Shown here: piece after piece, positions 1 to 43,045 of the stretch
How the letters are laid out: each line of letters begins with the position of its first letter
Numbering within the stretch: position 1 is the stretch's first letter
Assembly (NCBI GenBank): GCA_002841295.1
Contig: PHEU01000002.1
Coordinates: 1-64,000 of the forward strand
From: Actinobacteria bacterium HGW-Actinobacteria-6
Lineage (GTDB): Bacteria > Actinomycetota > Coriobacteriia > Anaerosomatales > Anaerosomataceae
Direction: 5' to 3'
Length of the DNA stretch: 64,000 nucleotides
Program-made: the position numbers and the translations under genes
Notes under the pieces: generated by a model
What the model was told of the DNA's origin: nothing
The model's database searches: none
What the model saw: only the letters and a program-made list of their open reading frames with translations

Positions 1-276
1 GGCATTTCCCGAGGAGTCCGAAGCGGTCTTACCTGCGTCGAAACGACCCGGATCCCCCGTGAACCCTGTCTTCAGAACCTAGAACCCCGTCCATCTAACA
101 ATGAATGTACTGACTCAGTATGAACGCATAAGTGCCAGAAGTACTGACTCTGTAAGACACGGGCGCAGCTGCGGTATTCCGTGTAAGTGAACTCCCCGCG
201 CCCCGATGGCCAGAATACCCCAGGCGAAGGCGGATGGCACGAAGAGTTCTGCAGTCTGCGTAAGCGCACTCGGGAA
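1..276. other. non-coding left edge with short repeats
   Basis: No convincing gene is visible here; the open frames that cross it have no ribosome binding site and no recognisable motif. It lies just beyond the doc stop codon. It contains a 10-bp direct repeat (listed separately) and one ATCTAAC (93-99) matching the RYYYAAC half of an integron attC core, but no matching GTTRRRY partner within the next 170 bases, so I do not call an attC site. Confidence 0.5.
107..150. repeat. 10-bp direct repeat containing a palindrome
   Basis: GTACTGACTC occurs at 107-116 and again at 141-150, one 34-bp step apart. The first copy is part of a perfect 6+1+6 palindrome, TACTGACTCAGTA (108-120). The spacing is near three helical turns, as for tandem operators, but no adjacent gene is visible inside the window to assign it to. 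Confidence 0.5.
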
Positions 277-690
277 CTAGGTACTGTCCGCCCGCGGAAC
301 CAGGTGTGTCCTGACCCAGCCCGCGAGATCTTCCTCGGTAAGCTCGCCTGCCGCGAGTGCCACGATCGTCGTTACGACCTCGCTTTCGGCGGCGCGCAGA
401 TCAAGTCCGTTCAGCCCCAGGAACACCGCCATCGCAACGAATGCGACGCGCTTGTTGCCATCAGCATAGGGATGGTTGCGGGCGATTCCGAAGCCGTACG
501 AAGCAGCCAGTGACGCTAGGTCCACCTCGGGTTCGTACGCGTACCGTTGCTGCGGCCGTGCCAGCGCCGACTCGAGCGAGCCCTCGTCACGCAAGCCGGA
601 CAAACCACCGTGCGTGCGTAGCAGATCAACATGAATCGCATCCACAACGAGACGCGACACCCACCGGGGTTCTTGTGACGGCGCCGACAC
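277..690 (-). CDS. doc: Doc-type (Fic family) toxin, death-on-curing protein
   Basis: 137 aa with a GTG start, five bases after the stop of the upstream antitoxin gene. It carries the Fic/Doc active-site loop HPYADGNKR at residues 73-81 (consensus HxFx[D/A]xNKR) and the usual Doc length of about 125-140 aa. Known Doc toxins phosphorylate elongation factor Tu and arrest translation; that activity is inferred here. The pairing with an AbrB/MazE-fold antitoxin, rather than the Phd of phage P1, is seen in many chromosomal copies. The module is one of two toxin-antitoxin pairs lying downstream of an integron integrase. Confidence 0.9.
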   Translation of the reverse strand: MSAPSQEPRWVSRLVVDAIHVDLLRTHGGLSGLRDEGSLESALARPQQRYAYEPEVDLASLAASYGFGIARNHPYADGNKRVAFVAMAVFLGLNGLDLRAAESEVVTTIVALAAGELTEEDLAGWVRTHLVPRADST

Positions 691-695
691 CGAGT

Positions 696-923
696 CTACT
701 TGGCCAGCTCGCGCAGGGCGTTGCGGTAGGTGCGGCCAACCTCGGCGGCAATCGCAAGCGCCTCTTCGGTGTCGGGATCGTAAGGCGTCAGCAAGATGCC
801 GCGATCAGTCTCGATCGCGATGACGGTGTCCCCCGCTGCGAGTTTCAGTCGGTCAGCCATGTCCTTGGGCAGCGTGGCGGCAATCGAGCCGCCTGCCCGC
901 CGCAACTTCACTCCCTGGACCAT
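696..923 (-). CDS. AbrB/MazE-family antitoxin paired with Doc
   Basis: 75 aa from the ATG at 923, chosen because GGAGG lies 7 bases upstream; a longer frame to 962 has no ribosome binding site and would run through the inverted repeat at 956-973. Residues about 1-45 form a SpoVT-AbrB swapped-hairpin DNA-binding domain (MVQGVKLRRAGGSIAATLP, then a short acidic strand), and the rest is an acidic tail of the type that wraps a toxin. It should neutralise Doc and repress its own operon. The stop codon is six bases from the doc start, so the two are cotranscribed. Confidence 0.85.
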   Translation of the reverse strand: MVQGVKLRRAGGSIAATLPKDMADRLKLAAGDTVIAIETDRGILLTPYDPDTEEALAIAAEVGRTYRNALRELAK

Positions 924-955
924 GGTGGCCTCCGATTCGATGTCGTATGCCGAGT

Positions 956-973
956 GTAGCATATTTGTGCTAC
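956..973. promoter_or_regulatory. inverted repeat upstream of the AbrB-doc operon (candidate operator)
   Basis: GTAGCA and TGCTAC form a perfect 6-bp inverted repeat separated by TATTTG, 33 bases upstream of the antitoxin start. On the minus strand it overlaps a possible -10 (TATGCT). Autoregulation through such a site is typical of toxin-antitoxin operons; binding itself is inference. Confidence 0.45.
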
Positions 974-979
974 TTCAGC

Positions 980-1234
980 TTAGTAGTGGTACCGCAACTG
1001 CGCGATGAACACCGACTCGCCTTCAATGCGGTACACGAGCCTGTGTTCGTCGTTGATTCGGCGCGACCAGTAGCCGGCGAGCGCGTGCTTGAGTGGCTCG
1101 GGCTTGCCGACGCCTTCAAACGGCGTGCGTTCGATCTCGCGAATGAGCGTGTTGATGCGGCGGAGCACCTTTCGGTCCGTCCGCTGCCAGTAGAGGTACT
1201 CCTCCCAGGCGCTCTCGGAGAAGACGAGCCTCAC
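980..1234 (-). CDS. yoeB: YoeB-type (Txe) mRNA endoribonuclease toxin
   Basis: 84 aa, exactly the family length. It has the RelE-fold YoeB hallmarks: W-x-E-Y-x-x-W near the N terminus, GVGKPEPLKHALAGYWSRRI in the middle, and the terminal H-R-L-V-Y ... YHY with the catalytic His and final Tyr residues. Known members cleave mRNA in the ribosomal A site. The start codon overlaps the stop of yefM (ATGA), so translation is coupled. The stop lies only 57 bases from the start of the next antitoxin gene, leaving no room for a normal integron attC site between the modules. Confidence 0.93.
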   Translation of the reverse strand: MRLVFSESAWEEYLYWQRTDRKVLRRINTLIREIERTPFEGVGKPEPLKHALAGYWSRRINDEHRLVYRIEGESVFIAQLRYHY

Positions 1235-1482
1235 TCGGCCAGCTCGCGTTCGTGTCCGCGGCCCGATTCCAGCTCGGCGATAGACTCAAGCAGCCGCCGG
1301 GCGTTCTTGGGACTGCGCAGCAGATACGACGTCTCTTCAAGCGCCTCGTAGTCTTCAAGCGAGATCATAACCACCGACGACGACGCTCTGCGGGTGACGA
1401 TGATCGGCGTGTGATCTTCGCACACACGGTCCATTTCGCTCGCGAGATTGCTGCGAAGTGTCGTGTAAGGGATGGCGTCCAT
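1231..1482 (-). CDS. yefM: YefM-family antitoxin (Phd/YefM fold)
   Basis: 83 aa from the ATG at 1482, preceded by GGAGG at 7 bases; the longer frame to 1563 is rejected. The N terminus MDAIPYTTLRSNLASEMDRV and the central PIIVTRR ... VVMISLEDYEAL are typical of YefM, with a disordered acidic toxin-binding C terminus. It should neutralise YoeB and repress the pair. It begins 77 bases after the stop of the integrase gene on the same strand. Confidence 0.93.
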   Translation of the reverse strand: MDAIPYTTLRSNLASEMDRVCEDHTPIIVTRRASSSVVMISLEDYEALEETSYLLRSPKNARRLLESIAELESGRGHERELAE

Positions 1483-1502
1483 GGCGGTCCTCCGATTATC
1501 TG

Positions 1503-1528
1503 ACCTGCACAGGTAATGGTACAGGTTA
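1503..1528. promoter_or_regulatory. candidate YefM operator
   Basis: ACAGGTAA (1509-1516) and ACAGGTTA (1521-1528) form a direct repeat with a 12-bp step, and ACCTGCACAGGT (1503-1514) is an imperfect palindrome. The elements sit 20-45 bases upstream of yefM, where the known E. coli YefM-YoeB operator (TGTACA-cored palindromes) lies. Function is inferred from position. Confidence 0.4.
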
Positions 1529-1559
1529 CAACCGCCCGCGTGCAACACGCTCGCTCCCC

Positions 1560-2534
1560 TCACAGCGCATCGAACGGGCTCTTCACGCCAAGTCCTCCCT
1601 TGTTGAGCACGTGGGTGTAGATCATCGTCGTGTTCAGGCTCTTATGGCCGAGAAGCTCCTGGATCGTGCGGATGTCGTAGCCGCACTCGAGCAGGTGTGT
1701 TGCGAACGAATGCCGCAGCGTGTGGCACCCGACGTGTTTCGCCACGCCCGACGCGCGTGCCGCCTCGCCCACCGCTCGCTGGATGATCGTCGGGTGCACG
1801 TGGTGGCGCCCCTGCTCGCCGGTCTTCCTGTTGCACCACCGGCGCTCCTGGGGGAAGACCCACTGCCAGCCCCACTGCGTCGGGGCGTTGGGGTACTTGC
1901 GATCGAGCGCGTCGGGGAGCACCACGCGACCCCACCCGTCGGCAAGATCGCGCTCGTGGACCGCCCGCGCTCGCCGTAGCTGCGCCTGAAGCGGCGGCTT
2001 AAGCGTGTCAGGGAGCATCGTCACGCGGTCCTTCGCGCCCTTGCCGTTGCGCACAAGGATCTCGCCGCGCCCGAAGTCGATGTCTTGCACCCGCAGACGC
2101 AGGCACTCCATGAGCCGCAATCCCGAGCCGTACATGAGCGACGCCATCAGCCACTTGTCGCCGTCGAGCTGATCCAGCAACTCGCGCACCTCGGCACGCG
2201 TCATCACAACCGGCAGCCGTTCGGGCTTGCGCGCACGAATCACCCCGCTAAGCTGACCCACTTCGCACCCGATGACGTGCCGGTACAGAAACAGCAATGC
2301 CGAGAGGGCCTGCGTCTGCGTGGAGGCGGCTACATGCTCTTCCACGGCCAGATGTGTGAGGTACGCATTGATCTCGGCCTCGCCCATCTCGGCAGGATGC
2401 CGGAGATGGTGAAAGCGGACGAAACGCGTCACCCACAGGCAGTACGCCTGCTCTGTTCGACGGCTGTAGTGGCGCGAGCGTAGCGCCGCCCGCAACTGCG
2501 ACATGAGTTGCCCCGGACGCGTTTTCTGCTCCAC
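1560..2534 (-). CDS. intI: integron integrase (tyrosine recombinase IntI)
   Basis: 324 aa, GTG start with GGGGAG just upstream. The tyrosine-recombinase tetrad is complete: R140, H271/R274 (HTLRHSF), H297 (LLGHKS) and Y306 (TTMIYTH). The feature separating IntI from XerC/XerD is present: the extra domain around residues 205-228, [14 protein letters not shown] then WGWQWVFP, very like the matching part of IntI1, and the C terminus [12 protein letters not shown] also follows the IntI pattern. IntI recombines attI with attC to insert gene cassettes. Two toxin-antitoxin pairs, frequent stabilisers of integron arrays, follow in the same direction, as in the reverse integrons known from spirochaetes, but no attC could be identified by eye. 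Confidence 0.92.
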
Positions 2535-29304: not shown

Positions 29305-30488
29305 CTATTCGGGCCGCGCAACAATCACACGAATTCCTTCGCGCCACGTCTGCGAGACCACCGGCGATCCCGGGCGGTACGCGAGGTGCACGTGCGACGG
29401 CGCGTCAAGCGCTGCGAAGTCTGCCGAGCACCCCGGTGCGAGACGCCCGATGTCAGTGCGCCTGAGTGCGGCGGCGCCTCCGCGCGTGGCGGCAACGAGC
29501 GCCTCGGCGGGCGTCATACGGTACTCGCGCACCGCAAGCGCGACCACGAATGGCATCGAGGTCACAAACGCCGAGCCGGGATTGCAGTCAGTGGCGAGTG
29601 CGACGGTGATGCCGGCATCGAGCAGCGCGCGAGCGTCTGCGTAGCGCGAGCGGGTCGAGAACTCGGCGGCTGGCAGGAGCGTCACGACGGTGTCGCCAAG
29701 TGAGAGCGCGTCCAGGTCCTCCTCCGAGAGGTACGAGCAGTGATCCACGCTGGCGGCATCGAACTCGACTGCCAACTGCGCGCCGGGACCATAGCCGAGT
29801 TGGTTGCCGTGCACGCGCGGAAGCAGCCCGGCTGCAACGCCGGCAGCGATCACACGGATGCTCTCAAGTTCGTCGAACGCCCCGTCCTCGCAGAAGACAT
29901 CAATCCAGCGTGCAAACGGGGCGCACTCGGCCAGCATCTCCCCGGTGACGAGCTTCAGGTACGCCTCGCGATCATCCATGTACTCGGCAGGCACGACGTG
30001 TGCGCCGAGGAAGGTGGTCTCACTGCTGAACTCGCTTGCGACCTCGAGGATGCGACGCTCGGTGGCGACGTCCAGGCCGTAGCCGCTCTTGATCTCCACG
30101 GTCGTGGTTCCCGAGGCGTGCATCTCGGCAAGCAGGCGGCTCGCAGTGGCGCGCAGCTCATCGGTGCTTGCGGCGCGCGTGGCCGCGACCGTCGTCATGA
30201 TGCCGCCGCCGGTGTACGGCTCCCCCGCCATCCGCGCCCCGAACTCCGCCGAGCGCTCGCCCGCGAACACCAGGTGCGTGTGGCTGTCGACGAAGCCCGG
30301 CACCACGGCGCGGCCACCAAGCTCGACGCGCTCATCGGCTGCGGGCGCATCGCTTGCGCGACCCACCCACGCGATGCGGCCGTCCTCGGCGATGAAGGCA
30401 GCGTCGTGCAGGAGCCCCAGCGCGCTTTCGTCGCCGAGCGTCGGCTCGCAGGTGGCAAGCTCGCCGATGCCAGTGAACAGCGTCGCGC

Positions 30489-30492
<4 letters not shown>
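29305..30492 (-). CDS. hutI: imidazolonepropionase
   Basis: 395 aa from the ATG at 30492, which overlaps the hutU stop (ATGA); the frame upstream is a shadow of hutU. It is an amidohydrolase: [19 protein letters not shown] with the metal-binding [29 protein letters not shown] and the aspartate in [10 protein letters not shown]. It opens imidazolone-5-propionate to N-formimino-L-glutamate, third step of histidine degradation. It is the last gene of hutH-hutU-hutI; no hutG or ftcD is attached, but a formimidoylglutamase-like gene lies at 37164. Confidence 0.96.
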
Positions 30493-32149
<1,657 letters not shown>

Positions 32150-32153
<4 letters not shown>

Positions 32154-33688
32154 TCCAACGCTCCAATCGCTTCTTCCACGGCGGCCACAAGCGCGCCGGA
32201 TACAACCAGTCCGTGCACCGCCTCGATCTCCGCCGAGAGGAACCGGTCCGGTCCCGGCCCTTCTACGTGCTCGCGCACGAGCGCGTGCACTGCGCCCGTC
32301 GCAGGCGCCGGCGTGAGCGGTGCGCGGAAGTCGAGCGCCCGGGCCGCCGTCAGCACCTCGATCGCAAGCACCCGCGAAAGCCCGTCCACGCTGCGCCGCA
32401 GCTTGCGCGCCGCGCTCCAGCCCATCGACACGTGATCTTCCTGCATTGCCGAGGACGGTATCGAGTCCACGCTCGCCGGCGCGGCGAGGCGCTTCATCTC
32501 GCTCACGATTCCTGCCGCCGTGTACTGCGCGATCATGTGGCCCGAATCCACCCCCGGGTCGCCCGCCAGAAACGGCGGCAGTCCGTGGTTGCGAGCCACG
32601 TCCAGCATGCGGTCGGTGCGCCGCTCGGCCATGCTCGCCAGGTCGGCCGCAACGATCGCCAGGAAGTCGAGTACGTACGCCACCGGCGCGCCGTGGAAGT
32701 TGCCATTGCTCTCAACGCGACCGTCCGGCAGCACCACCGGATTATCGACCGCCGAGGAAAGCTCGCGCGCGGCGACCATCTCGGCGTGCGCGATCGTGTC
32801 GCGCACCCCGCCCGCCACCTGGGGAGCGCACCTGAGCGAGTACGCGTCTTGCACGCGGACGTCTCCCTCGGCATGCGAGGCGACGATCCCCGATCCCGCC
32901 AGCACGCGCGTGATGTTCCGCGCCGAGGCGGCCTGCCCGGGATGCGGGCGCAGCGCCTGCAAATCCGCCGCGAACACGCGATCCGTGCCGAGCAGCGCCT
33001 CCACGCTCATCGCCGCCGAGATGTCGGCGAGCTTGGCCAGCTCGCGCAGGTCCGTGAGCGCGAGCGAAAGCATGCCGAGCATGCCATCGGTGCCGTTGAT
33101 GAGCGAGAGGCCTTCTTTCTCCTCAAGCTCGACCGGTGCGAGGCCGGCTGTCGCGAGCGCCTCAGCAGCGCATTTGCGGCTACCGTCCGCCGTCCGTACG
33201 ACGCCCTCGCCCATGAGCGCGAGTGCACAGTGCGCGAGCGGCGCGAGGTCGCCAGAGCACCCCAGCGAGCCGTACTCGAAGACGATGGGCGTGATGTTCG
33301 CGTTCAGCATGCCGAGGTACGCCTCGGCAGTGGAAAGTCGCACGCCGGTGCGGCCGGTCGCAAGCGTCGCGAGACGCAGGAGCATCATCGCGCGGATGAC
33401 TTCGGTCTCAACCTCGGCGCCACTGCCCGCCGCATGGGAGCGCACGAGCGAGCGCTGCAGCTGGTGGCGCATCTCGGGCGCGATGTACTTGGTCGCAAGC
33501 GCGCCAAAGCCGGTGCTTACGCCGTAGACGGGCCTGCCTGATGCGGCGAGTTCGTCGATCCGCGCGCGGGCGGCCTCGATGGCGACGACGGCCTCGGCGG
33601 CAAGTTCTACGCGCGCACCGCCACGTGCGACGGCGACGACATCGGCACTAGTGAGCGAACGTGCCCCGACAACTACGGTTGAGTTCAT
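32150..33688 (-). CDS. hutH: histidine ammonia-lyase
   Basis: 512 aa from the ATG at 33688. It carries [13 protein letters not shown] (catalytic Tyr near residue 55) and the prosthetic-group loop [17 protein letters not shown]. The usual Ala-Ser-Gly that cyclises to the MIO electrophile is Cys144-Ser145-Gly146 here (codon TGC); I believe similar Cys-Ser-Gly loops occur in some actinobacterial enzymes. It converts histidine to urocanate and ammonia, opening the hut pathway. It leads the operon; an upstream hairpin and an inverted repeat lie in the 409-base spacer. Confidence 0.95.
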
Positions 33689-34097
33689 TGTCTCTGAATC
33701 GCCTCTCGCTCGATGCCTGGTGCGGGCAGTAGATCGCACCAGTCTGCAACTCAGAATACAGTCTACCCCCGAATGCGCCGGGGGTTTCTCATGGACCGGC
33801 CTGGTCTCGGCGCTCATCCGACAATTGCCCTCATGCTTAACACATGATTCTGTGACCAAACCTGAACCGCTGAGCCTCACTCGTTCGACAATTCACAAAA
33901 GGTTTGTTAATCTAGACTCAACCACCAAATAACAAAGCGTGCGGACGCGCGCACAAAACCGGTTCCGATGCGCCATTCAACCAAGCGGCTTCGCAGGACA
34001 CATTGGCAGAAGCCGCAACGCCTAGGACTTGACTGCACACGCTCAGTACCTGGTCTTTTATCCACTGAGCTGCGAAAAGTGAAAGGAGTTGATGTTG
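33689..34097. other. intergenic region between hutH and the cytochrome operon
   Basis: 409 bases between divergent operons with no gene. It holds an inverted repeat GGTGCG (33719-33724) / CGCACC (33735-33740), a hairpin CCCCCG (33766-33771) / CGGGGG (33779-33784), both close to hutH, and an AT-rich stretch at about 33890-33935. A TTGACT (34029-34034) resembles a -35 box for the cytochrome genes, but I see no well-spaced -10. Confidence 0.5.
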
Positions 34098-34601
34098 ATG
34101 GAGAAGAAGGTTGATGACGAATCAGAAGTCGTCCGACCCGCCCGGAAGAAGAGGCGGCTCTATGTTCTCCTGGGAGCGCTCGTTGCGGTCGGACTCATAG
34201 CTTTTGGTGCCATTGAGTACACCTCATCGCCCGGATTTTGTGCGTCGTGTCACGAAATCGCTCCCTCTGTCGACGGATGGCGATCTTCGGCCCATGCCGT
34301 TGACGACGCTGCGACGTGCCTGGACTGCCATGCAGATCCCGGCTTCGTCGGCGAGATGATCGCGCACATCGGCGGGCTGCAAGAAGCATACGTTCACGTG
34401 ACGGAGAAACCCTCAGCGCAGGACATCGATGGCCTCGTGCCGCAGGCTCGCTGCCTCGAGTGCCATGACGACGCGTGGGACGACGACGCATTCCCTGACG
34501 ACCACCCTACCAAGGAAGCGCCGTGCGGAGTCTGTCACCGTGAATCGGCTCACACGAACGAAAAGGCCGCGTTCATTCCTGCCGCCAAAGGAGGTGAGTA
34601 G
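34098..34601 (+). CDS. NapC/NirT (NrfH)-type membrane tetraheme cytochrome c
   Basis: 167 aa from the ATG at 34098, 9 bases after AAGGAG (ATG at 34092 is too close). One membrane anchor (residues about 21-41, LYVLLGALVAVGLIAFGAI) precedes four CxxCH heme sites: CASCH, CLDCH, CLECH and CGVCH. This is the quinol-oxidising NapC/NirT/NrfH architecture, which passes electrons from menaquinol to a periplasmic or surface reductase. It is coupled to the next gene, whose ribosome binding site overlaps its stop region, so the partner reductase is presumably the 11-heme protein. Confidence 0.9.
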   Translation: MEKKVDDESEVVRPARKKRRLYVLLGALVAVGLIAFGAIEYTSSPGFCASCHEIAPSVDGWRSSAHAVDDAATCLDCHADPGFVGEMIAHIGGLQEAYVHVTEKPSAQDIDGLVPQARCLECHDDAWDDDAFPDDHPTKEAPCGVCHRESAHTNEKAAFIPAAKGGE

Positions 34602-34604
34602 ATC

Positions 34605-35954
34605 TTGAATACCAGAATCGCTAAAAGACTGCTCACAGTCGCTCTCGTCGCTCTCGCGGCCGCTGCTCTGCTCGGCCTGACGGGCTGCGCCACTGAGCAA
34701 CTCAAGGCCGAAGCAGGACAGGTATCATGCGCTGGCTGCCACACCGATCGAGAACTGCTCAAGGCTGATCTCGCTGCTACGCCGCTCCCTGTCGTCGAGA
34801 AGGCCGAGAGCTCGGGCGAGGGTTGAGGTGGATCGTTGCCTCCGGTGGAGGCCGACCTCGCAGCACTCGTTAGCCTGGAGTTCTTCGACACCACTCACGG
34901 CAAGATGGATTGCCGTGATTGCCACGGTGGCGTGAAGTTCGCCGCCAACAGAACCGAGGCTCATGAGGGTATGGACCCGCTCCCTTCCGCGAAGTATGCG
35001 GAATCGGTTTGTGCGCCCTGCCATGACGACATGACCTCAACGTTCGCGACGAACATGCACGCCGACACGTCGGCTGTTTCGGGTGCCACTGACGCGCTGG
35101 TACTTGAGCGCGCCACCGACGTTGAGACGGTGAAGATGGGCCTCGCCAATAACTGCGCGACGTGCCATGTCTCCGGCTGTGGCGATTGCCACGTCTCCCG
35201 TCCGCAGTTCAACGGCGGCGGATTCGTTCGTGGTCACGTTTTCTACGCCGAGCCGAACTCCTCGCTCAACTGCATGGGCTGCCACGGAAGCCGCATTGAG
35301 AAGGAGTACACCGGCAAGGGCGAGAGCGAGAAGACCACGCTTACCGCTGATGTGCACTGGAGTCCCGGTGGCATGCAGTGTGTCGACTGCCACACGGTCG
35401 AGTGGATGCACGGTGGAGAAGAGTACGCCTCGCGATATGAGTCGCCCGAAGCTCCCCAGTGCACCGACTGCCACGAGATCGACAAGAGCATTGAGATGCA
35501 CGCGGAACATGCACTGCCTGACTCAGAGGTCTACCTGCAGTGCCAGGTCTGCCACGCGCAGGATTACAACAACTGCAGCTCATGCCACGTCGCAAAAGAC
35601 GCCAAAGACCTTCCCTACTACGAGACCGAGTCCAGCGGCTTCGATCTGAACATCGGACGCAACTACGCGCAGGACGACTCGCGCCCATGGGACTACATCG
35701 TCGTGCGGCATGTCCCTGTGGCTGAGAGCACATTCGACTTCTACGGGAAGGACGCGCTCGGCAAGCTCGATGCGCTTCCGACCTGGAAGTACGCAACACC
35801 GCACTCGATCCAGCGCGTCACCCGTCAGACAAAGGACGGTTGTGACAGCTGCCATGGGAACCGCGACATCTTCCTCACCGAGGACGACCTCGCCGGTCTC
35901 TCTGATCTTGAACGTAAGGCGAACACAGACGTGTTGGTTACCGATATCCCGTAG
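34605..35954 (+). CDS. 11-heme c-type cytochrome lipoprotein with an in-frame UGA
   Basis: Read from the TTG at 34605 (GGAGGTG 9 bases upstream) this is a 449-codon frame with a TGA at codon 74 (34824-34826). The first part has a lipoprotein signal (LLGLTGC) and one CAGCH; the second, in the same frame, has ten more CxxCH sites (CRDCH, CAPCH, CATCH, CGDCH, CMGCH, CVDCH, CTDCH, CQVCH, CSSCH, CDSCH) but no signal peptide of its own. Heme attachment needs export, so both halves most likely belong to one protein. The TGA lies in a linker, GEG-stop-GGS-LPP, and would be glycine (GGA) with one base changed. Readthrough as selenocysteine, a recent nonsense mutation, an assembly error, or restart at TTG 34836 are the options. 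Confidence 0.75.
34824..34852 (+). promoter_or_regulatory. UGA codon followed by a SECIS-like hairpin
   Basis: Eleven bases after the in-frame TGA, GCCTCC (34838-34843) pairs perfectly with GGAGGC (34847-34852) around a GGT loop. The loop begins with G, 17 bases after the UGA, within the spacing that bacterial SECIS models accept (from memory, about 16-37). GAGGT just after the UGA can also pair with ACCTC at 34855-34859. The same bases hold a GAGGTGG that could act as a weak ribosome binding site for TTG 34836. Confidence 0.4.
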
Positions 35955-35983
35955 TGGGACTCGGAAGTAACGAGGAGGAAAGA

Positions 35984-37006
35984 ATGACAAGCAAGAAATG
36001 GTTAGTGCTAGCGTTGTCCATGGTTCTCGCGATGTCGCTCGTCGCAATGCCGGGTTGCGCCGCGAAGGACGAGGCGCCTGCAGAAACTCCGGCTGCTGAA
36101 GTCGAAGCTCCTGCATTCGATGCATCGCAGGCAATGGTCGACGCCGCCGCCGAGTACTTCAACGGCGAGCCCGTCCCCACCATCTCGGCCGACGATCTCT
36201 ACACGATCGTTCAGTCCAAGGACCCCGGCTACCAGATCGTCTCCGTACGCAGCCCCGAGGACTTTGCCAAGGGTCACATCGAAGGCGCGATCAACATCCC
36301 CTTCAAGGCAATCGGTACCGAGGAGAACTTGGCCAAGCTGGACCCGAACAAGAAGATCGTCGTGGTCTGCTACACCGGTCACACCGCTTCTGAGACCAAC
36401 ATGTTCTACAACATGCTCGGCTACGACGCTGTGACGCTTAAGTTCGGCATGTCTGGTTGGACGAAAGACGAAGCTGTCTATGCCCTCGGTACGTTCCCGA
36501 CTGGCAAGGCTGCCGGCTACCCCACGGTGACCACCGTGACCGAGTCCGCCGGTGGTTTCGATCTCCCGGCCGTGACTGCCGAATACGCTGACGCACGCGC
36601 AGCGATCATCGGCCAGGCAGATGCGTACTTCGCCTCTGAGCTGCCGTTCACGATCACCGCTGAGGACGTCTACAACCTCGTGCAGTCGAAGGATCCGGGC
36701 TACCAGATTCTCTCGGTGCGCGGCGCTGAGGACTACGCCAAGGGCCACATCGATGGCGCGATCAACGTGCCGTGGGTCAAGATCGCCGACCCGACGATGC
36801 TCGCCAAGCTCGACCCGAACAAGAAGGTCATCGTCTACTGCTACACCGGTCACACCGGTGGCGAAGTGGCAATGTTCCTGAACCTCATGGGCTACCAGGC
36901 CATCAACATGAAGTTCGGCATGTCCAGCTGGAACAGCGACGCCGCTGTTGGCGGCAACGCTGGCTATGATCCTGCTACGGTCAAGGGCTATCCGACCGTC
37001 AAGTAA
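35984..37006 (+). CDS. tandem-rhodanese lipoprotein
   Basis: 340 aa from the ATG at 35984 with GGAGG 5 bases upstream. Lipoprotein signal ending MSLVAMPGC, so it is anchored outside the membrane. Two similar rhodanese domains follow (about 60-180 and 215-330), each with an intact active-site cysteine in the loop CYTGHT, and each preceded by VQSKDPGYQI. Rhodaneses carry sulfane sulfur as a cysteine persulfide. It lies 29 bases after the multiheme cytochrome gene and before a terminator, so it belongs to that operon; a sulfur-handling role in respiration is inferred. Confidence 0.9.
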   Translation: MTSKKWLVLALSMVLAMSLVAMPGCAAKDEAPAETPAAEVEAPAFDASQAMVDAAAEYFNGEPVPTISADDLYTIVQSKDPGYQIVSVRSPEDFAKGHIEGAINIPFKAIGTEENLAKLDPNKKIVVVCYTGHTASETNMFYNMLGYDAVTLKFGMSGWTKDEAVYALGTFPTGKAAGYPTVTTVTESAGGFDLPAVTAEYADARAAIIGQADAYFASELPFTITAEDVYNLVQSKDPGYQILSVRGAEDYAKGHIDGAINVPWVKIADPTMLAKLDPNKKVIVYCYTGHTGGEVAMFLNLMGYQAINMKFGMSSWNSDAAVGGNAGYDPATVKGYPTVK

Positions 37007-37027
37007 TCAGAACCAAGCGTATGTAGC

Positions 37028-37061
37028 CGAAGGGGCTCTGCAGAGATGCAGAGCCCCTTCG
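37028..37061 (+). terminator. terminator of the cytochrome-rhodanese operon
   Basis: GAAGGGGCTCTGCA (37029-37042) and TGCAGAGCCCCTTC (37047-37060) form a perfect 14-bp stem with a GAGA tetraloop, extended by C28-G61. It lies 20 bases after the rhodanese stop. Confidence 0.88.
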
Positions 37062-37163
37062 CTATCCCGCGCCTACGAGGTTCACGCCGCACCTGATGGG
37101 GCATCTTGTGAGAGACTCTGAACAGCGAAGATGACATCCGCCGCCTGAAACAGAGGAACCACG

Positions 37164-38087
37164 ATGAGCGCACACGACCTTCCTGGCGACCCGCTCTGGC
37201 CAAGAGCATCCGCGTGGCTCACTCCCGCGAGTGACGCTCACCCCGAGGGCGACATCGCGCTACTCGGCGTGCCTGCGTTCCGCTCCTCGATCACCCCGAC
37301 AGGCGCGAATGCCACGCCCGCCGCAGTACGCGAAGCACTCACGCGCTACTCGACCTACTCGGCCAGCAGAGATATCGATGTCGCAACGGTCTCGGCGATC
37401 GACCTCGGCGACGTGGACGAACCTGATGGCGCCGCAGGGCACGCGCGTGTCACTGCCGCGTCGGCCGATGCCGAGGGCCGCTTTCCACTGCTCATCGCCA
37501 TCGGCGGCGATAACTCCGTAACGCTACCGGTGATGACAGGCCTCGCGCGCGGCGACCTCAGCGGCTGGGGGCTCGTCACGGTCGATGCACACCACGACCT
37601 GCGCGACGGCAAGAGCAACGGCTCCCCCGTCCGCCAGCTCATCGATGCCGGGCTGCCGGCAGAGCACGTGGTGCAGATCGGCATCGCGGACTTTGCCAAC
37701 TCGCCCGCGTACGCGAAGCGCGCCAAAGACCTCGGCATCACCGTTATGACGCGCGCGTCTCTTCGCGGTCGCAACATGGCAGAAGCTGCCGAGGAGGCCC
37801 TGCGCATCGCGGGACACGGCGGTCGCCCGGTCTACGTGGACCTCGATGTCGACGTCTGCGATCGCGCTGAAGTGCCCGGCTGCCCCGCAGCGGCGCCCGG
37901 CGGCATCACAGCCGATGAGCTACGACAACTCGCGCAGCTGTTCGCCTCGGACACGCGGGTGCGAGGCATCGACATCACTGAGATCGATGCCACGATCGAT
38001 GCGGAGGACGGCAGAACCGTGCGGCTCGCGGCGCTCCTGGTGCTCGAGATCGCGACGGGCTATGCGCTACGCCCGGATGCGACCTGA
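37164..38087 (+). CDS. ureohydrolase, probably formimidoylglutamase
   Basis: 307 aa, ATG start with GAGGAA upstream. It is an arginase/agmatinase-fold enzyme: GGDNSVTLPV, VTVDAHHDLRDG (the DAHxD manganese ligands) and YVDLDVDVCDRAEVPGCPAAAPGG, followed by DITEIDATID. The CPAAAPGG loop and nearby hut operon favour formimidoylglutamase (HutG), which completes histidine breakdown to glutamate and formamide; agmatinase or arginase cannot be excluded from sequence alone. A following arginine deiminase/carbamate kinase set shows arginine is handled by the other route. Confidence 0.8.
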   Translation: MSAHDLPGDPLWPRASAWLTPASDAHPEGDIALLGVPAFRSSITPTGANATPAAVREALTRYSTYSASRDIDVATVSAIDLGDVDEPDGAAGHARVTAASADAEGRFPLLIAIGGDNSVTLPVMTGLARGDLSGWGLVTVDAHHDLRDGKSNGSPVRQLIDAGLPAEHVVQIGIADFANSPAYAKRAKDLGITVMTRASLRGRNMAEAAEEALRIAGHGGRPVYVDLDVDVCDRAEVPGCPAAAPGGITADELRQLAQLFASDTRVRGIDITEIDATIDAEDGRTVRLAALLVLEIATGYALRPDAT

Positions 38088-38090
38088 GTT

Positions 38091-39032
38091 CTACCGACGC
38101 TCCGAGGGCACCTCGGCAACAACGTTGGTGCCGGCTTCACCGGTAACGATGAGCGCAATGTCCTCAAGCTTGCCGATTGCTGCACGATTGCCGGTCTTGC
38201 GGACGAAGCGCTTCGCCGCCTCGACCTTCGGTCCCATCGAACCAGCCGCGAACTCGTGCTCATCGAGCACCTCAGGAGTGGTCCAGCCGAGCACACACTG
38301 CTGCGGGGTGTCCCAATCAAGGCACACGCCCTCGGCATCGGTGGCCATGATGAACAGATCGGCACCGAGCTCGCGCGCAAGCAGCTCACCCGCGAAGTCC
38401 TTGTCGATGACTGCTTCGATTCCAACGAGCGTACGGGTGCCATCGGGCAAGTAGACAGTCGGGATGCCTCCCCCGCCAGCGCAGATAACAACCGAGCCCT
38501 TCTCGACGAGCCACTTGATGGGCTCAAGTTCGAAGATGCGCTTGGGCTGTGGTGATGCGACAACGCGGCGCCACGTTCGACCGTCTTGCTTGAACACCCA
38601 GCCCTTCTTGAGGGCCAGCGCGTCGGCGATGTCCTTCTCGTAGCAGGGCCCAACGAACTTCGTCGGGTTGTCGAAGGCCGGGTCGTTCGGGTCCACTTCC
38701 ACCATCGTGAGCAGCGTAGCGAGCCGCTTTGAGAACGGCAGCACGTTGCCCAGCTCCTGCTCGACCATGTACGCGATCATTCCCTGCGTCTGCGCGCCGA
38801 GGACGTCAAGCGGGTACGGCTCAACGTCAGTGTATGCGGCGGCTTGCAGTGCGAGCAGTCCCACCTGCGGACCGTTGCCGTGCGCGATGATGAGGTTGTG
38901 GTCCTCGGCAAGCGGAGCGAGAGCGCGCGCAGCAATCTTCACGTTGGCGCGCTGTGCTTCCGCGGTCATCGGTTCCGAGCGACGCAGCAGCGCGTTGCCG
39001 CCGAGCGCCACCACGATGGTTAACTTCTCCAT
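38091..39032 (-). CDS. arcC: carbamate kinase
   Basis: 313 aa of normal length. Family marks: [81 protein letters not shown] (split in text as one region) and [17 protein letters not shown]. It makes ATP from carbamoyl phosphate, the last step of the arginine deiminase pathway. arcA lies at 41777 on the same strand, but two cell-envelope genes on the opposite strand separate them and no ornithine carbamoyltransferase is in the window. A 17-bp palindrome lies 42 bases upstream of its start. Confidence 0.95.
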
Positions 39033-39073
39033 TCACGATCTCCTTCGTCATTAAACTTATGCGGCGTGACCGT

Positions 39074-39090
39074 ATGCAGAAACTCTGCAT
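39074..39090. promoter_or_regulatory. palindrome upstream of arcC
   Basis: ATGCAGA-AAC-TCTGCAT is a perfect 7+3+7 palindrome between the divergent arcC and MBOAT genes, 42 bases upstream of the arcC start. Its size and TGCA-rich form recall arginine-repressor boxes of other actinobacteria; this is a guess, and arcA has no matching site nearby. Confidence 0.4.
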
Positions 39091-39183
39091 GCCGATACAT
39101 ACTACCCGCCGGAACCCAGCGTTGACAGCAATACCTGTGCTAGAATTCGCCGACGTTGAAGGCGGCGTTTCACGGGAGGGCGC

Positions 39184-40680
39184 GTGCAGTTCACTTCAGT
39201 CGAATACCTGGCCTTCCTAGCCCTCTCGGTGATGGTGTATTTCGCGCTGCCCGGCACCAAAAGCCGCACCATCTGGCTGCTAATCGCAAGCTACGTCTTC
39301 TACATCTCCCTCTCGGCTCGCTGGACGCTCGCGCTCTTTGGAATCACTGCTGTGGGATACGTCTTCGGCCTTCTCATCGAACGCAGCGGACCAGCCTCCC
39401 GGGGTGCCGCAATCCCCCGGCGAACCCGCCGCTTGCTTGCGGTCGGGATCATCCTCGTGGCGGGTACGCTCTTCTTCTTCAAGTACGCCGCATTCTCGGC
39501 AACGCTGCTCAACGGCGCGCTTTCACTTGTCGGCACGTCCGCGCGCACGCCCGTACTCACACTGGCGCTGCCGATCGGCATCTCCTTCTGGACGTTCCAG
39601 TCGATCGCGTACCTCGTCGACATCGCCCGCGGCAAGCTCGTGGCCGAGAGAAACCCACTCCGCTTCGCGCTCTTCGTGAGCTTCTTCCCGCAGGTAGCCG
39701 CCGGCCCGATCGCGCGCGGCGGTCACCTTCTGCCCCAGCTGGCCGAGAAGCACAGCTTCTCGTATGAGCGCATGCGCTCGGCGCTCCTGCTGATGGCGTG
39801 GGGCTTCCTCAAGAAGTTGCTCATCGCAGACCCACTCGGCGTTATGGTGCGTACGGTCTTCGACAAACCTCACGCGTTTGGGAGCGACGGGGTGCTGCTC
39901 ATCGGCGCAGCCGTCGCGTTCTCCATTCAGATCTACTGCGATTTCTCGGCATACACCGACCTCGCGCGCGGCGCCGCCCGGCTCTTCGGCGTTGACTTGA
40001 TGAAGAACTTCGATCGTCCGTACGCGGCGCGCTCCATCAAGGAATTCTGGCGCCGCTGGCACATGACGCTCATGGCCTGGCTGAAGGATTACATCTACAT
40101 CCCGCTCGGCGGAAGCCGGGTCGCCGCGTGGCGGCGGTATGCGAACATCCTGGCGGTGTTCCTGCTGAGCGGCCTGTGGCACGGTGCCGGCCTGACCTTT
40201 GTCGTCTGGGGCCTCCTGAATGGCCTCTATCAGATTCTCGGCGACGTACTCGCCCCTGCACGCGCGAAGGCGCTCGCAGCATTCAGGATTGACCGGGACG
40301 GGCACGTGCACCGCACGCTTCAGACCCTGACCACCTTCAGCCTCATCACGATCGCGTGGGTGTTCTTCCGGGCGAACACACTCGGCGACGCCCTCTACAT
40401 TTTGCCGAGGATGCTCAACTTCGGCCCGAGTGCGCTCTGGCACCCAGGCACCCTCGAACTCGGTCTCTCGGTACCGCAGATGCAGGTCACGGCAATCGCG
40501 ACCGTCATCGTCTTCTCGGCAGAGTGGCTCTCGGCCCGGGTCAGCCTGCCGGCGCTCCTCTACCGACAGCCCCTCGTGGTGCGGTGGTTCGTCTACGAGT
40601 TCACGATCCTCGCGATCGCAATCTTCGGCTACTACGGCCCGATGTTCTCTGCCGCCGACTTCGCCTACTTCAAGTTCTGA
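39184..40680 (+). CDS. MBOAT-family O-acyltransferase (AlgI/PatA-like)
   Basis: 498 aa, GTG start with GGGAGGG upstream. About eleven membrane segments. Diagnostic motifs: ISFWTFQSIAYLVDI, SFFPQVAAGPIARGG, FCDFSAYTDLARGAA (as YCDFSAYTD here), FWRRWHMTLMAWLKDY and the catalytic His in LSGLWHGAGLTFVVWG (H333). Such proteins move an acetyl group across the membrane for O-acetylation of polysaccharide or peptidoglycan. The next gene, 7 bases away, encodes the SGNH partner that would complete transfer. Confidence 0.92.
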   Translation: MQFTSVEYLAFLALSVMVYFALPGTKSRTIWLLIASYVFYISLSARWTLALFGITAVGYVFGLLIERSGPASRGAAIPRRTRRLLAVGIILVAGTLFFFKYAAFSATLLNGALSLVGTSARTPVLTLALPIGISFWTFQSIAYLVDIARGKLVAERNPLRFALFVSFFPQVAAGPIARGGHLLPQLAEKHSFSYERMRSALLLMAWGFLKKLLIADPLGVMVRTVFDKPHAFGSDGVLLIGAAVAFSIQIYCDFSAYTDLARGAARLFGVDLMKNFDRPYAARSIKEFWRRWHMTLMAWLKDYIYIPLGGSRVAAWRRYANILAVFLLSGLWHGAGLTFVVWGLLNGLYQILGDVLAPARAKALAAFRIDRDGHVHRTLQTLTTFSLITIAWVFFRANTLGDALYILPRMLNFGPSALWHPGTLELGLSVPQMQVTAIATVIVFSAEWLSARVSLPALLYRQPLVVRWFVYEFTILAIAIFGYYGPMFSAADFAYFKF

Positions 40681-40687
40681 GGACGCG

Positions 40688-41761
40688 ATGACTTCTGTGA
40701 CACATACAGGTCGCTTCAGACGCCTCGCGGCGTCGGTTGCCTTCTGCCTGCTCACAGCTGCGCTGTTGACGTACACCGGCGACGTTCTGAAACCGCCGAG
40801 AACCGGAGCATCGAACGGAGCCATCTGGTCGACATTCACCAAGCTTGAGCCCGACAGCATCGACGTGCTCTTCCTCGGCAATTCACACACCTTCACCGGC
40901 GTCGACCCCGCCACACTCTGGCGCACCTCTGGCATCCCGTCGTTCGTCAACGCCGGCCCCACCCAAAAACTCGCCGTCACCAACTACTACTTGCGTGAGT
41001 CGCTTCGCAGCCAGCACCCGAGCGTCGTGGCAGTCGAGATGTCGTCGCTCTCCTACCCCCGCCTCAAGTTCGACCAGGCCTTCCACGACATCAACATCAA
41101 CTACATGCCCTGGTCTGCCGAGAAGATCGCCGCCGGCATTATGGCGACTCCCTTGAATGAAAGCGTCGGCGCTCTGCTCGACCTCTGGACGTATCACGGA
41201 CGCTGGCCAGACATCAGGCGGTCGGACTTCAACCTTCTCGAGAAGGACCGTGGCGGCGAATACCTCAACGGCTTCTCGCCGAGAACGAAACCGAAAGCCG
41301 TCCCCGAGACCCCGCATACGATTGCGCCTGACGCTATTGCCAAGACGAACAGGTCACTCGAGTACAACCTTGAATCGCTGCGGCAGATCGCAGCCACCTG
41401 CGATGAGCGTGGAATCGAGCTGCTCCTGTTCCTCACGCCGACCGGTCCGCCGAACGACTACAGCTATCAGCTTGGTCGCGTCGGCGCCACCCTTATGGCG
41501 GAGTTCGACAACGTGCACGTCCTCGACCTCAGCGAGCCGGGTGCTGTTCCGGGACTCTCGTACACCGACGATTTCTTCGATGGCGGCCATCTCGTCTACA
41601 CCGGGGCCGAGAAATCCTCCGCCGTACTGGCGAAGTATCTCGCCGACACCTACGGGCTTAAGGATCGCCGGGGCGACAGCGCGTACGCGAACTGGAGCGA
41701 AGCTGTCGAGCTGCGAGACGCGTTCGTCCAGCGCCACAAGGAAGCGCCCAAGGAGAAGTAG
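40688..41761 (+). CDS. SGNH/AlgJ-like O-acyltransferase partner, membrane-anchored
   Basis: 357 aa from the ATG at 40688; the upstream frame overlaps the MBOAT gene out of phase. One N-terminal anchor (residues 12-30, LAASVAFCLLTAALLTY). The block I motif VLFLGNSHTFTGVDP holds the SGNH serine, and the C-terminal DDFFDGGHLVYTGAEK holds the Asp and His, so the catalytic triad is complete. It should sit outside the membrane and pass acyl groups delivered by the MBOAT to a surface glycan. The polymer is unknown. Confidence 0.82.
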   Translation: MTSVTHTGRFRRLAASVAFCLLTAALLTYTGDVLKPPRTGASNGAIWSTFTKLEPDSIDVLFLGNSHTFTGVDPATLWRTSGIPSFVNAGPTQKLAVTNYYLRESLRSQHPSVVAVEMSSLSYPRLKFDQAFHDININYMPWSAEKIAAGIMATPLNESVGALLDLWTYHGRWPDIRRSDFNLLEKDRGGEYLNGFSPRTKPKAVPETPHTIAPDAIAKTNRSLEYNLESLRQIAATCDERGIELLLFLTPTGPPNDYSYQLGRVGATLMAEFDNVHVLDLSEPGAVPGLSYTDDFFDGGHLVYTGAEKSSAVLAKYLADTYGLKDRRGDSAYANWSEAVELRDAFVQRHKEAPKEK

Positions 41762-41776
41762 CGCGCTCTGAGCGTT

Positions 41777-43045
41777 CTACTCGAGTGCGTCGCGTGAGAT
41801 CGGGCAGGTCATGCAGTGACAGCCGCCCCGACCCTTGCCAAGCTCACTACCCTCGATCTCGAATACCTCGATGCCCGCGTTACGCAGCGCCGCATTCGTG
41901 TGCATGTTCTTGGAGTATCCGATGACCACGCCCGGCTCAAGCGCGACGACATTGTTGCCGTCATCCCACTGCTCGCGCGCCGCCTGAAACGCGTCACCAC
42001 CGGTCGGTATGACTCGCAGCTTCTTGACCTCAAGCGCGTCTGCAACGGCGTCGAGCAGGCTCTTCTCGGCGGTTATGTCGAAGCAATCGGCCGCCTCACC
42101 GGGTCGTATGCTGTAGACCTGCATCGACTCGATGACCGGCGGGTACATCGTCACGGCGTCGCGATCGACAAAGCCGAAGACGGTATCGATGTGCATGTAC
42201 GCGCGATCGACCGGCATGCGGCACGCGATGATCCGCTCGGCAGCGCCTGCAGAGAAGAGCGAGTGCGCCAGATGCTCGACCATTCGGCCGGTGGAGCGCT
42301 CCCCCATCCCCACGAGGACGGTCTTGTTGCCGATAGGCATCAAGTCGCCGCCTTCAAGCGAGTTGCCCTGACCGAGGTCCTCCACGCCAAACCGGCCTGC
42401 ATCGCCCTCGGGGGGATACCAGAACTCAAAATCCGCCCCGGCAAAGCGCGGGTGGTAGCGGTAGATGATCGAGGTGTTCACGACCTCGAGACGCCGCGCA
42501 TGCCAGAAGAGCGGCGGCAGGATCACGCCGCCATAGAGCCACGCGCTGGAATCGCGCGTGAAGAGGCTGTTCGGCAGCGGCGGCAGAACGAACGAGTTCG
42601 GCTCGGCAAGCACGGCACCGAGCGAGTGGCGATTGAGGGCGTCCAGGTCGAAGCCTTCCAACTCCTCGATGAGCAGACCACTCACAAGTGCCTCGGCGAG
42701 CTGCTGAGGCGGCATGCCGAGCAGGAAGGCACGCAGATCTCGCACCATCGACGGGCCGACGGTGTAGGACGACACGAGGCGCGTCACGACGTCGGCGCGT
42801 GCCTCGGCAGATGCCGTGAGCGTCTCAACCAGCAAATCGAAGAGGTAGAGCACCTCCACGCCGCGGTCGCGCATGACCGTGGTGAAGTCATCGTGCTCGC
42901 GCTGCGCGCGCTCGACCCACACGAGGTCGTCAAACAAAAAGCGCTCGCGATTATGCGGAGTCATGCGCTCGAGCGCAAGGCCCGGACGATGTACGAGCAC
43001 GGTTCTGAGTTTACCGACTTCAGAGTATGCACCGAGCGTTGTCAT
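41777..43045 (-). CDS. arcA: arginine deiminase
   Basis: 422 aa. Marks: VGKLRTVLVHRPGLALERMTP, FTRDSSAWLYGGVILPP, SLEGGDLMPIG (EGGD) and the C-terminal GRGGCHCMTCPISRD with the nucleophile C411. It converts arginine to citrulline and ammonia, the first step of the pathway ending at ArcC. There is no strong ribosome binding site; AAGG lies 10 bases upstream. The arc genes are not contiguous here, unlike the usual arcABC operon. Confidence 0.96.
   Translation of the reverse strand: MTTLGAYSEVGKLRTVLVHRPGLALERMTPHNRERFLFDDLVWVERAQREHDDFTTVMRDRGVEVLYLFDLLVETLTASAEARADVVTRLVSSYTVGPSMVRDLRAFLLGMPPQQLAEALVSGLLIEELEGFDLDALNRHSLGAVLAEPNSFVLPPLPNSLFTRDSSAWLYGGVILPPLFWHARRLEVVNTSIIYRYHPRFAGADFEFWYPPEGDAGRFGVEDLGQGNSLEGGDLMPIGNKTVLVGMGERSTGRMVEHLAHSLFSAGAAERIIACRMPVDRAYMHIDTVFGFVDRDAVTMYPPVIESMQVYSIRPGEAADCFDITAEKSLLDAVADALEVKKLRVIPTGGDAFQAAREQWDDGNNVVALEPGVVIGYSKNMHTNAALRNAGIEVFEIEGSELGKGRGGCHCMTCPISRDALE

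Follow-up and report, generated by a model that had tools for sequence, protein, structure and literature searches.

The window analysed here is a stretch of 64,000 nucleotides (positions 1 to 64,000 of contig PHEU01000002.1) from Actinobacteria bacterium HGW-Actinobacteria-6. On its forward strand lies an operon of three genes, the second of which is divided by an in-frame TGA that we interpret as a selenocysteine (Sec) codon. The features are as follows.

34089..34601, + strand: NapC/NrfH-like four-heme membrane cytochrome c, putative quinol-oxidising electron feeder (PF03264, E 1.1e-13)
34590..34597, + strand: Shine-Dalgarno-like GGAGGTGA of the cytochrome gene (read directly)
34605..35954, + strand: predicted Sec undecaheme lipoprotein cytochrome c, 449 aa, a single gene through the UGA (from the frame and homologues)
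34824..34826, + strand: predicted Sec codon TGA, residue 74, in G-E-G-U-G-G-S (TGA or Cys in homologues)
34838..34852, + strand: SECIS-like hairpin, GCCTCC/GGAGGC stem and GGT loop (comparative stem tests)
35954..37006, + strand: double-rhodanese lipoprotein, partner gene (PF00581, two domains, E 4e-35)

The cytochrome gene starts at TTG 34605, downstream of GGAGGTGA and directly after the NapC/NrfH-like gene. Its frame (34605–35954, +) contains the TGA at 34824–34826 as its sole internal stop and ends with TAG 35952–35954. Before the TGA there is one CxxCH together with a lipoprotein-type signal (lipobox Cys28), whereas the part behind it has ten CxxCH and lacks a signal. The joined cytochrome has eleven CxxCH in total; it is exported as a lipoprotein and carries eleven c-type hemes. 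This frame reading bears out the initial annotation, which had described a single in-frame TGA between a signal-bearing one-heme part and a ten-heme part, and the hairpin it had pointed to (GCCTCC-GGT-GGAGGC, 34838–34852, starting 11 nt past the UGA) is present as described, its loop separated from the UGA by 17 nt. The product of 34089–34601 scored 62 bits against the NrfH model, under the model cut-off, and the rhodanese lipoprotein (35954–37006) bears a CYTGHT loop in both of its domains.

Across 29305–43045 the operon is surrounded by amino-acid degradation genes. Upstream, on the minus strand, are hutI-, hutU-, and hutH-like genes, and downstream is a hutG/agmatinase-like gene followed by carbamate-kinase-like and arginine-deiminase-like genes, the last two named by eye. 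An Rfam search of 28–42 kb returned no relevant match and no SECIS family, a PHROGs search gave no match, and promoter and terminator scans yielded nothing informative.

Searches for the cytochrome gene in Coriobacteriia covered 296 genomes at class level and 69 at order level. It was detected in 10 of the 69 order genomes, and each copy spanning the site had one and only one internal TGA, always at the same position and flanked in Coriobacteriia copies by the motif GEG-U-GG[SQ]. A wider profile search extended the gene to the phylum of a Desulfobacterales MAG (L037), where 48 of 395 genomes carry it. Almost every copy there has a single TGA, which in some 50 sampled copies occupies the same column as in the window. 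In the class of an Ignavibacteriales MAG, profile searching recovered the gene from 50 of 245 genomes, none with an internal stop. Relatives from Bacteroidota/Ignavibacteria have uninterrupted frames with Cys at the TGA column (e.g., GGG-C-GG), and one Desulfobacterales MAG relative, L037 itself, is likewise uninterrupted with Cys at this column. The loci read out have Sec or Cys there in all cases except L072 (Tyr), and Gly was found at the column in none of the homologues examined. Apart from the heme motifs, the only conserved Cys/Sec position is residue 74, and in a tree built without the TGA column one change divides Sec from Cys, with one more required for the Tyr copy. Comparison with L027 after the UGA gave 161 differences at third codon positions versus 44 and 40 at first and second positions, an approximately fourfold excess which indicates that the sequence past the UGA encodes functioning protein and is under purifying selection.

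The Cys form in L037/G298, a Desulfobacterales MAG with Sec machinery, is nested within the Bacteroidota clade and represents either a horizontal transfer or a mis-binned contig. The Tyr copy L072 (717 aa frame, 255–2405, minus strand) includes two fused rhodanese domains and is placed on a very long branch; either the reaction may have been lost or the protein may have a different function.

The source genome contains selA (608 bits), selB (373 bits), the tRNA-Sec gene selC, and selD, all within 39–48 kb of contig C63, so all four genes that the initial annotation had proposed looking for are there. The selC gene has the anticodon UCA and was detected with Infernal at 53.5 bits (cut-off 47), having been missed by ARAGORN, and selD has its own in-frame TGA. 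Among relatives, selA was present in every tested TGA-form genome except two assemblies that are 85–86% complete. A selA match over the cut-off was missing in three of four Cys-form genomes, and neither selA nor selD exceeded the cut-off in three Ignavibacteria/Bacteroidetes genomes tested. SelB and tRNA-Sec(UCA) would decode the UGA as selenocysteine, making both reading frames one gene.

From these comparisons we infer that TGA 34824–34826 almost certainly encodes selenocysteine and is not a mutation. The initial annotation had left undecided whether the locus represents a new selenoprotein class or fresh nonsense; homologues and sel genes together strongly support the former and refute the latter. 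The homologue alignment it had suggested, with TGA or Cys and never Gly at the column, points to Sec and against nonsense. Its argument against Sec, based on the position of the site in a Gly/Ser linker a single base from GGA, fails because the G-[U/C]-G motif is itself conserved.

Other explanations of the interrupted frame fare poorly. Two proteins could be made from one transcript if translation stopped at the UGA and re-initiated at TTG 34836, just upstream of which the window has AGGTGG. We regard this as highly improbable: re-initiation there fails because the codon is CTG in L027, L029, and L030 and CTT in L043, and the second part would have no signal peptide for heme attachment. Moreover, the Cys relatives are single uninterrupted chains, and the Sec site lies mid-frame in the long multidomain proteins L074 and L100. 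A recent nonsense mutation (GGA to TGA) or an assembly error in a formerly intact gene is scarcely credible. One base change from Gly would suffice for the former, and the window does come from a draft assembly of 69 contigs, but the same TGA occurs in all spanning Coriobacteriia copies and in about 50 from another phylum, the homologues have Cys and not Gly, and purifying selection continues past the TGA. Sequencing error is excluded, as it cannot recur in dozens of independent assemblies across phyla. Reading of the UGA as Trp or Gly, through a variant code or plain readthrough, fits a frame open on both sides of the codon but can be dismissed with near certainty, given that the aligned residue is Cys and that the genome has full Sec machinery, including a selD with an in-frame TGA.

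Decoding of the UGA as Sec would be directed by the hairpin just downstream, a role for which there is comparative support and no experiment. Taken alone, the window hairpin is unremarkable, since 11% of synonymous recodings that preserve the peptide equal it (p 0.11), and the weight therefore rests on comparison across genes. Covariation was assessed with the stem at a fixed distance in 24 Sec genes whose alignment is gap-free. In this set 97.9% of cells are paired and double changes occur in four of the six pairs, with 18 double-change cells versus 4.3 in shuffles; sliding the partner by one base lowers pairing to 50–56%. The mean longest stem near +16 to +22 in 41 Sec genes is 6.07 bp versus 3.15 (sd 0.22) in synonymous recodings, and the same measure for 21 Cys genes is 2.57 versus 2.21. 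The hairpin is absent from Cys relatives. A loop of 3–4 bases, mostly G[GU]U, lies 16–20 nt after the UGA in 33 of the 41 Sec genes, and stems differ by subfamily at the same place (e.g., GGCUCC/GGAGCC, GGAGCC/GGCUCC, and GCCUCC/GGAGGC). A clear hairpin at the expected place was missing, being weak or displaced, in eight of the 41 (L055, L060, L066, L067, L068, L071, L074, and L078). Sec and Cys genes were not clearly told apart by free-energy z-scores over 45 nt, whereas the fixed-position stem test distinguished them. The family hairpins agree with the bacterial SECIS consensus. In two deep subfamilies (L067–L071 and L075–L078) Sec stands in other motifs (AG-U-GV and EG-U-AG), and the hairpins are either distinct from those elsewhere or not clear.

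The cytochrome has consistent gene partners. Of 61 distinct loci (duplicates removed), about 53 have a rhodanese protein encoded next to the cytochrome or fused to it. Within the order, the rhodanese is found in 10/10 cytochrome-bearing genomes, three of which encode it elsewhere, and in 2/59 genomes without the cytochrome (P 2e-10, treating genomes as independent). Fusions are C-terminal in L072 and L073 and N-terminal in L074 and L100. The NapC/NrfH-like gene adjoins the cytochrome in the window's family and in L027–L030, and forms a one-frame fusion with the Sec cytochrome in L031, L033, L015, and L018. The single gene, Sec codon, SECIS, and partner genes are each supported by sequence, and with comparative data of this kind, in the absence of proteomics or selenium labelling, we consider a selenoprotein working in a three-gene system very likely, a judgement that does not extend to its substrate.

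The predicted structure of the cytochrome (mean pLDDT 88, pTM 0.81) has as its top structural match the octaheme tetrathionate reductase 1sp3 (VIA-align Z 8.9, rmsd 4.5, 265 residues, model residues 95–449). Hydrazine dehydrogenase and hydroxylamine oxidoreductase follow as distant matches (Z 3.5–4.3). Foldseek found no significant match in the PDB, so the modelled fold suggests but does not show kinship to octaheme tetrathionate reductase. Sequence searches of the PDB returned only short matches in heme regions. The match to 1sp3 is moderate and leaves out Sec74. Nine His outside the heme motifs are invariant (98, 120, 152, 211, 251, 269, 299, 302, and 400). With eleven hemes and nine possible distal His, no conserved distal His remains for two hemes, which would suit a substrate site; we infer that one of the two is the likely reaction site near Sec74.

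Several known systems share features with this operon. ExtKL of Geobacter (NF040886) is also a multiheme c-type cytochrome whose annotated gene is split by a Sec UGA and whose cluster includes a rhodanese lipoprotein. However, ExtKL is pentaheme (PMC5877670) and the window protein has eleven hemes, and ExtKL has porin and Rieske/cytochrome b genes nearby. The NF040886 model did not match the window protein at E 0.001 and matched only one of 53 relatives (E 7e-4). The octaheme tetrathionate reductase of Shewanella oneidensis (TIGR04315, 1sp3) is likewise multiheme, has sulfur chemistry of the kind proposed for the window protein, and is its top structural match, but has eight hemes instead of eleven; TIGR04315 did not match the window protein, and the best relative reached 35.2 bits against a cut-off of 375. 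In Dethiobacter alkaliphilus, the SirA/Otr-like cytochrome DealDRAFT_1917 occurs with rhodanese genes and is up in thiosulfate-grown cells (PMC10376724). Its placement beside rhodanese-domain proteins is like that in the window operon, a likeness drawn without sequence comparison, but it is described as octaheme, with no mention of Sec (PMC10376724). Studies of other organisms in which sulfur reduction is linked to rhodaneses offer analogies only. As in NrfHA/NapC-type systems, a NapC/NrfH-like partner would feed a multiheme reductase, but the catalytic partner in the window is not NrfA, and Sec and rhodanese have no counterpart in NrfHA.

A 2026 review recognises 119 prokaryotic selenoprotein families/subfamilies, and the only c-type cytochromes it names are ExtKL and a GenBank-annotated TIGR04315 octaheme with Sec (PMC13188914). 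Our family is absent by name from that inventory (PMC13188914), NCBIfam release 20 has no model naming it, and no report of the family as a selenoprotein was found in the open-access literature (subscription papers were not covered). It appears to be a new family of Sec-containing multiheme cytochromes, outside ExtKL and TIGR04315. The model for the 'GUxG' selenoprotein (NF049953) was also tried, with no match in the source genome and none over the cut-off in seven relatives. Standard gene calling splits the gene in Sec-using lineages, and a fairly common anaerobic respiratory protein can therefore hide as fragments.

Electron direction, donor, substrate, and heme geometry are all inferred in the mechanism that we propose. 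Membrane electrons would probably reach the eleven-heme protein through the NapC/NrfH-like subunit, and the double-rhodanese partner probably binds or passes on sulfane sulfur as a persulfide. The Sec selenolate may attack the S–S bond of thiosulfate, tetrathionate, polysulfide, or the rhodanese persulfide, with heme electrons then reducing the Se–S adduct and releasing sulfide or thiosulfate. That sulfane-sulfur compounds are the substrate class is plausible but unsettled, resting as it does on gene neighbours and fold alone and on no assay. The broadest reading is likewise plausible but unsettled: an undescribed, widespread selenoenzyme family of eleven-heme respiratory reductases in which the single Sec works at a heme active site or as a ligand to it, and a dedicated rhodanese supplies the sulfane sulfur. 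If true, this would represent Sec-plus-heme chemistry for sulfur respiration, of which we know of no characterised example. The family brings together selenium, multiheme electron transfer, and the sulfur chemistry of rhodaneses. It is a concrete candidate for the respiration of sulfur compounds in uncultured Coriobacteriia and Desulfobacterota of the subsurface, and its natural Sec and Cys versions make the contribution of selenium to a heme enzyme directly testable.

Culture work lends some support to a sulfane-sulfur substrate. Anaerosoma tenue, a cultured member of the order Anaerosomatales, reduces both thiosulfate and elemental sulfur but neither selenite nor selenate (PMC9686372); L028, a same-family relative of the source genome, is assigned to this order. 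Quinones were undetected in cultured members of Anaerosomatales (PMC9686372), which weakens the quinol route. The acceptor of a real selenoprotein could instead be a metal(loid) such as selenite or tellurite, as has been proposed for the Geobacter ext cluster, a reading which we consider unlikely without setting it aside. ExtKL, the nearest named Sec cytochrome, is clustered with a rhodanese lipoprotein (PMC5877670), selenite/tellurite reduction is impaired in cells that have lost the porin ExtI (PMC5877670; PMC6148476), and there is weak similarity to the ExtM/ExtN/ExtO models. However, those matches are far under the cut-off and may reflect heme motifs only, and two cultured members of the order reduce neither selenite nor selenate (PMC9686372), although their carriage of the gene is not established.

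The rhodanese partner of the proposed sulfane-sulfur reductase also occurs in other arrangements. L074 and L100 are long single chains combining double rhodanese domains with the Sec cytochrome, with a CHB_HEX domain in L074 and SLH domains in L100, as if tethered to the cell surface. A rhodanese partner (62% identical) without the cytochrome was found in a same-family genome (G047:C1:490701-491717), and another genome, G019, has a second copy of the rhodanese partner elsewhere.
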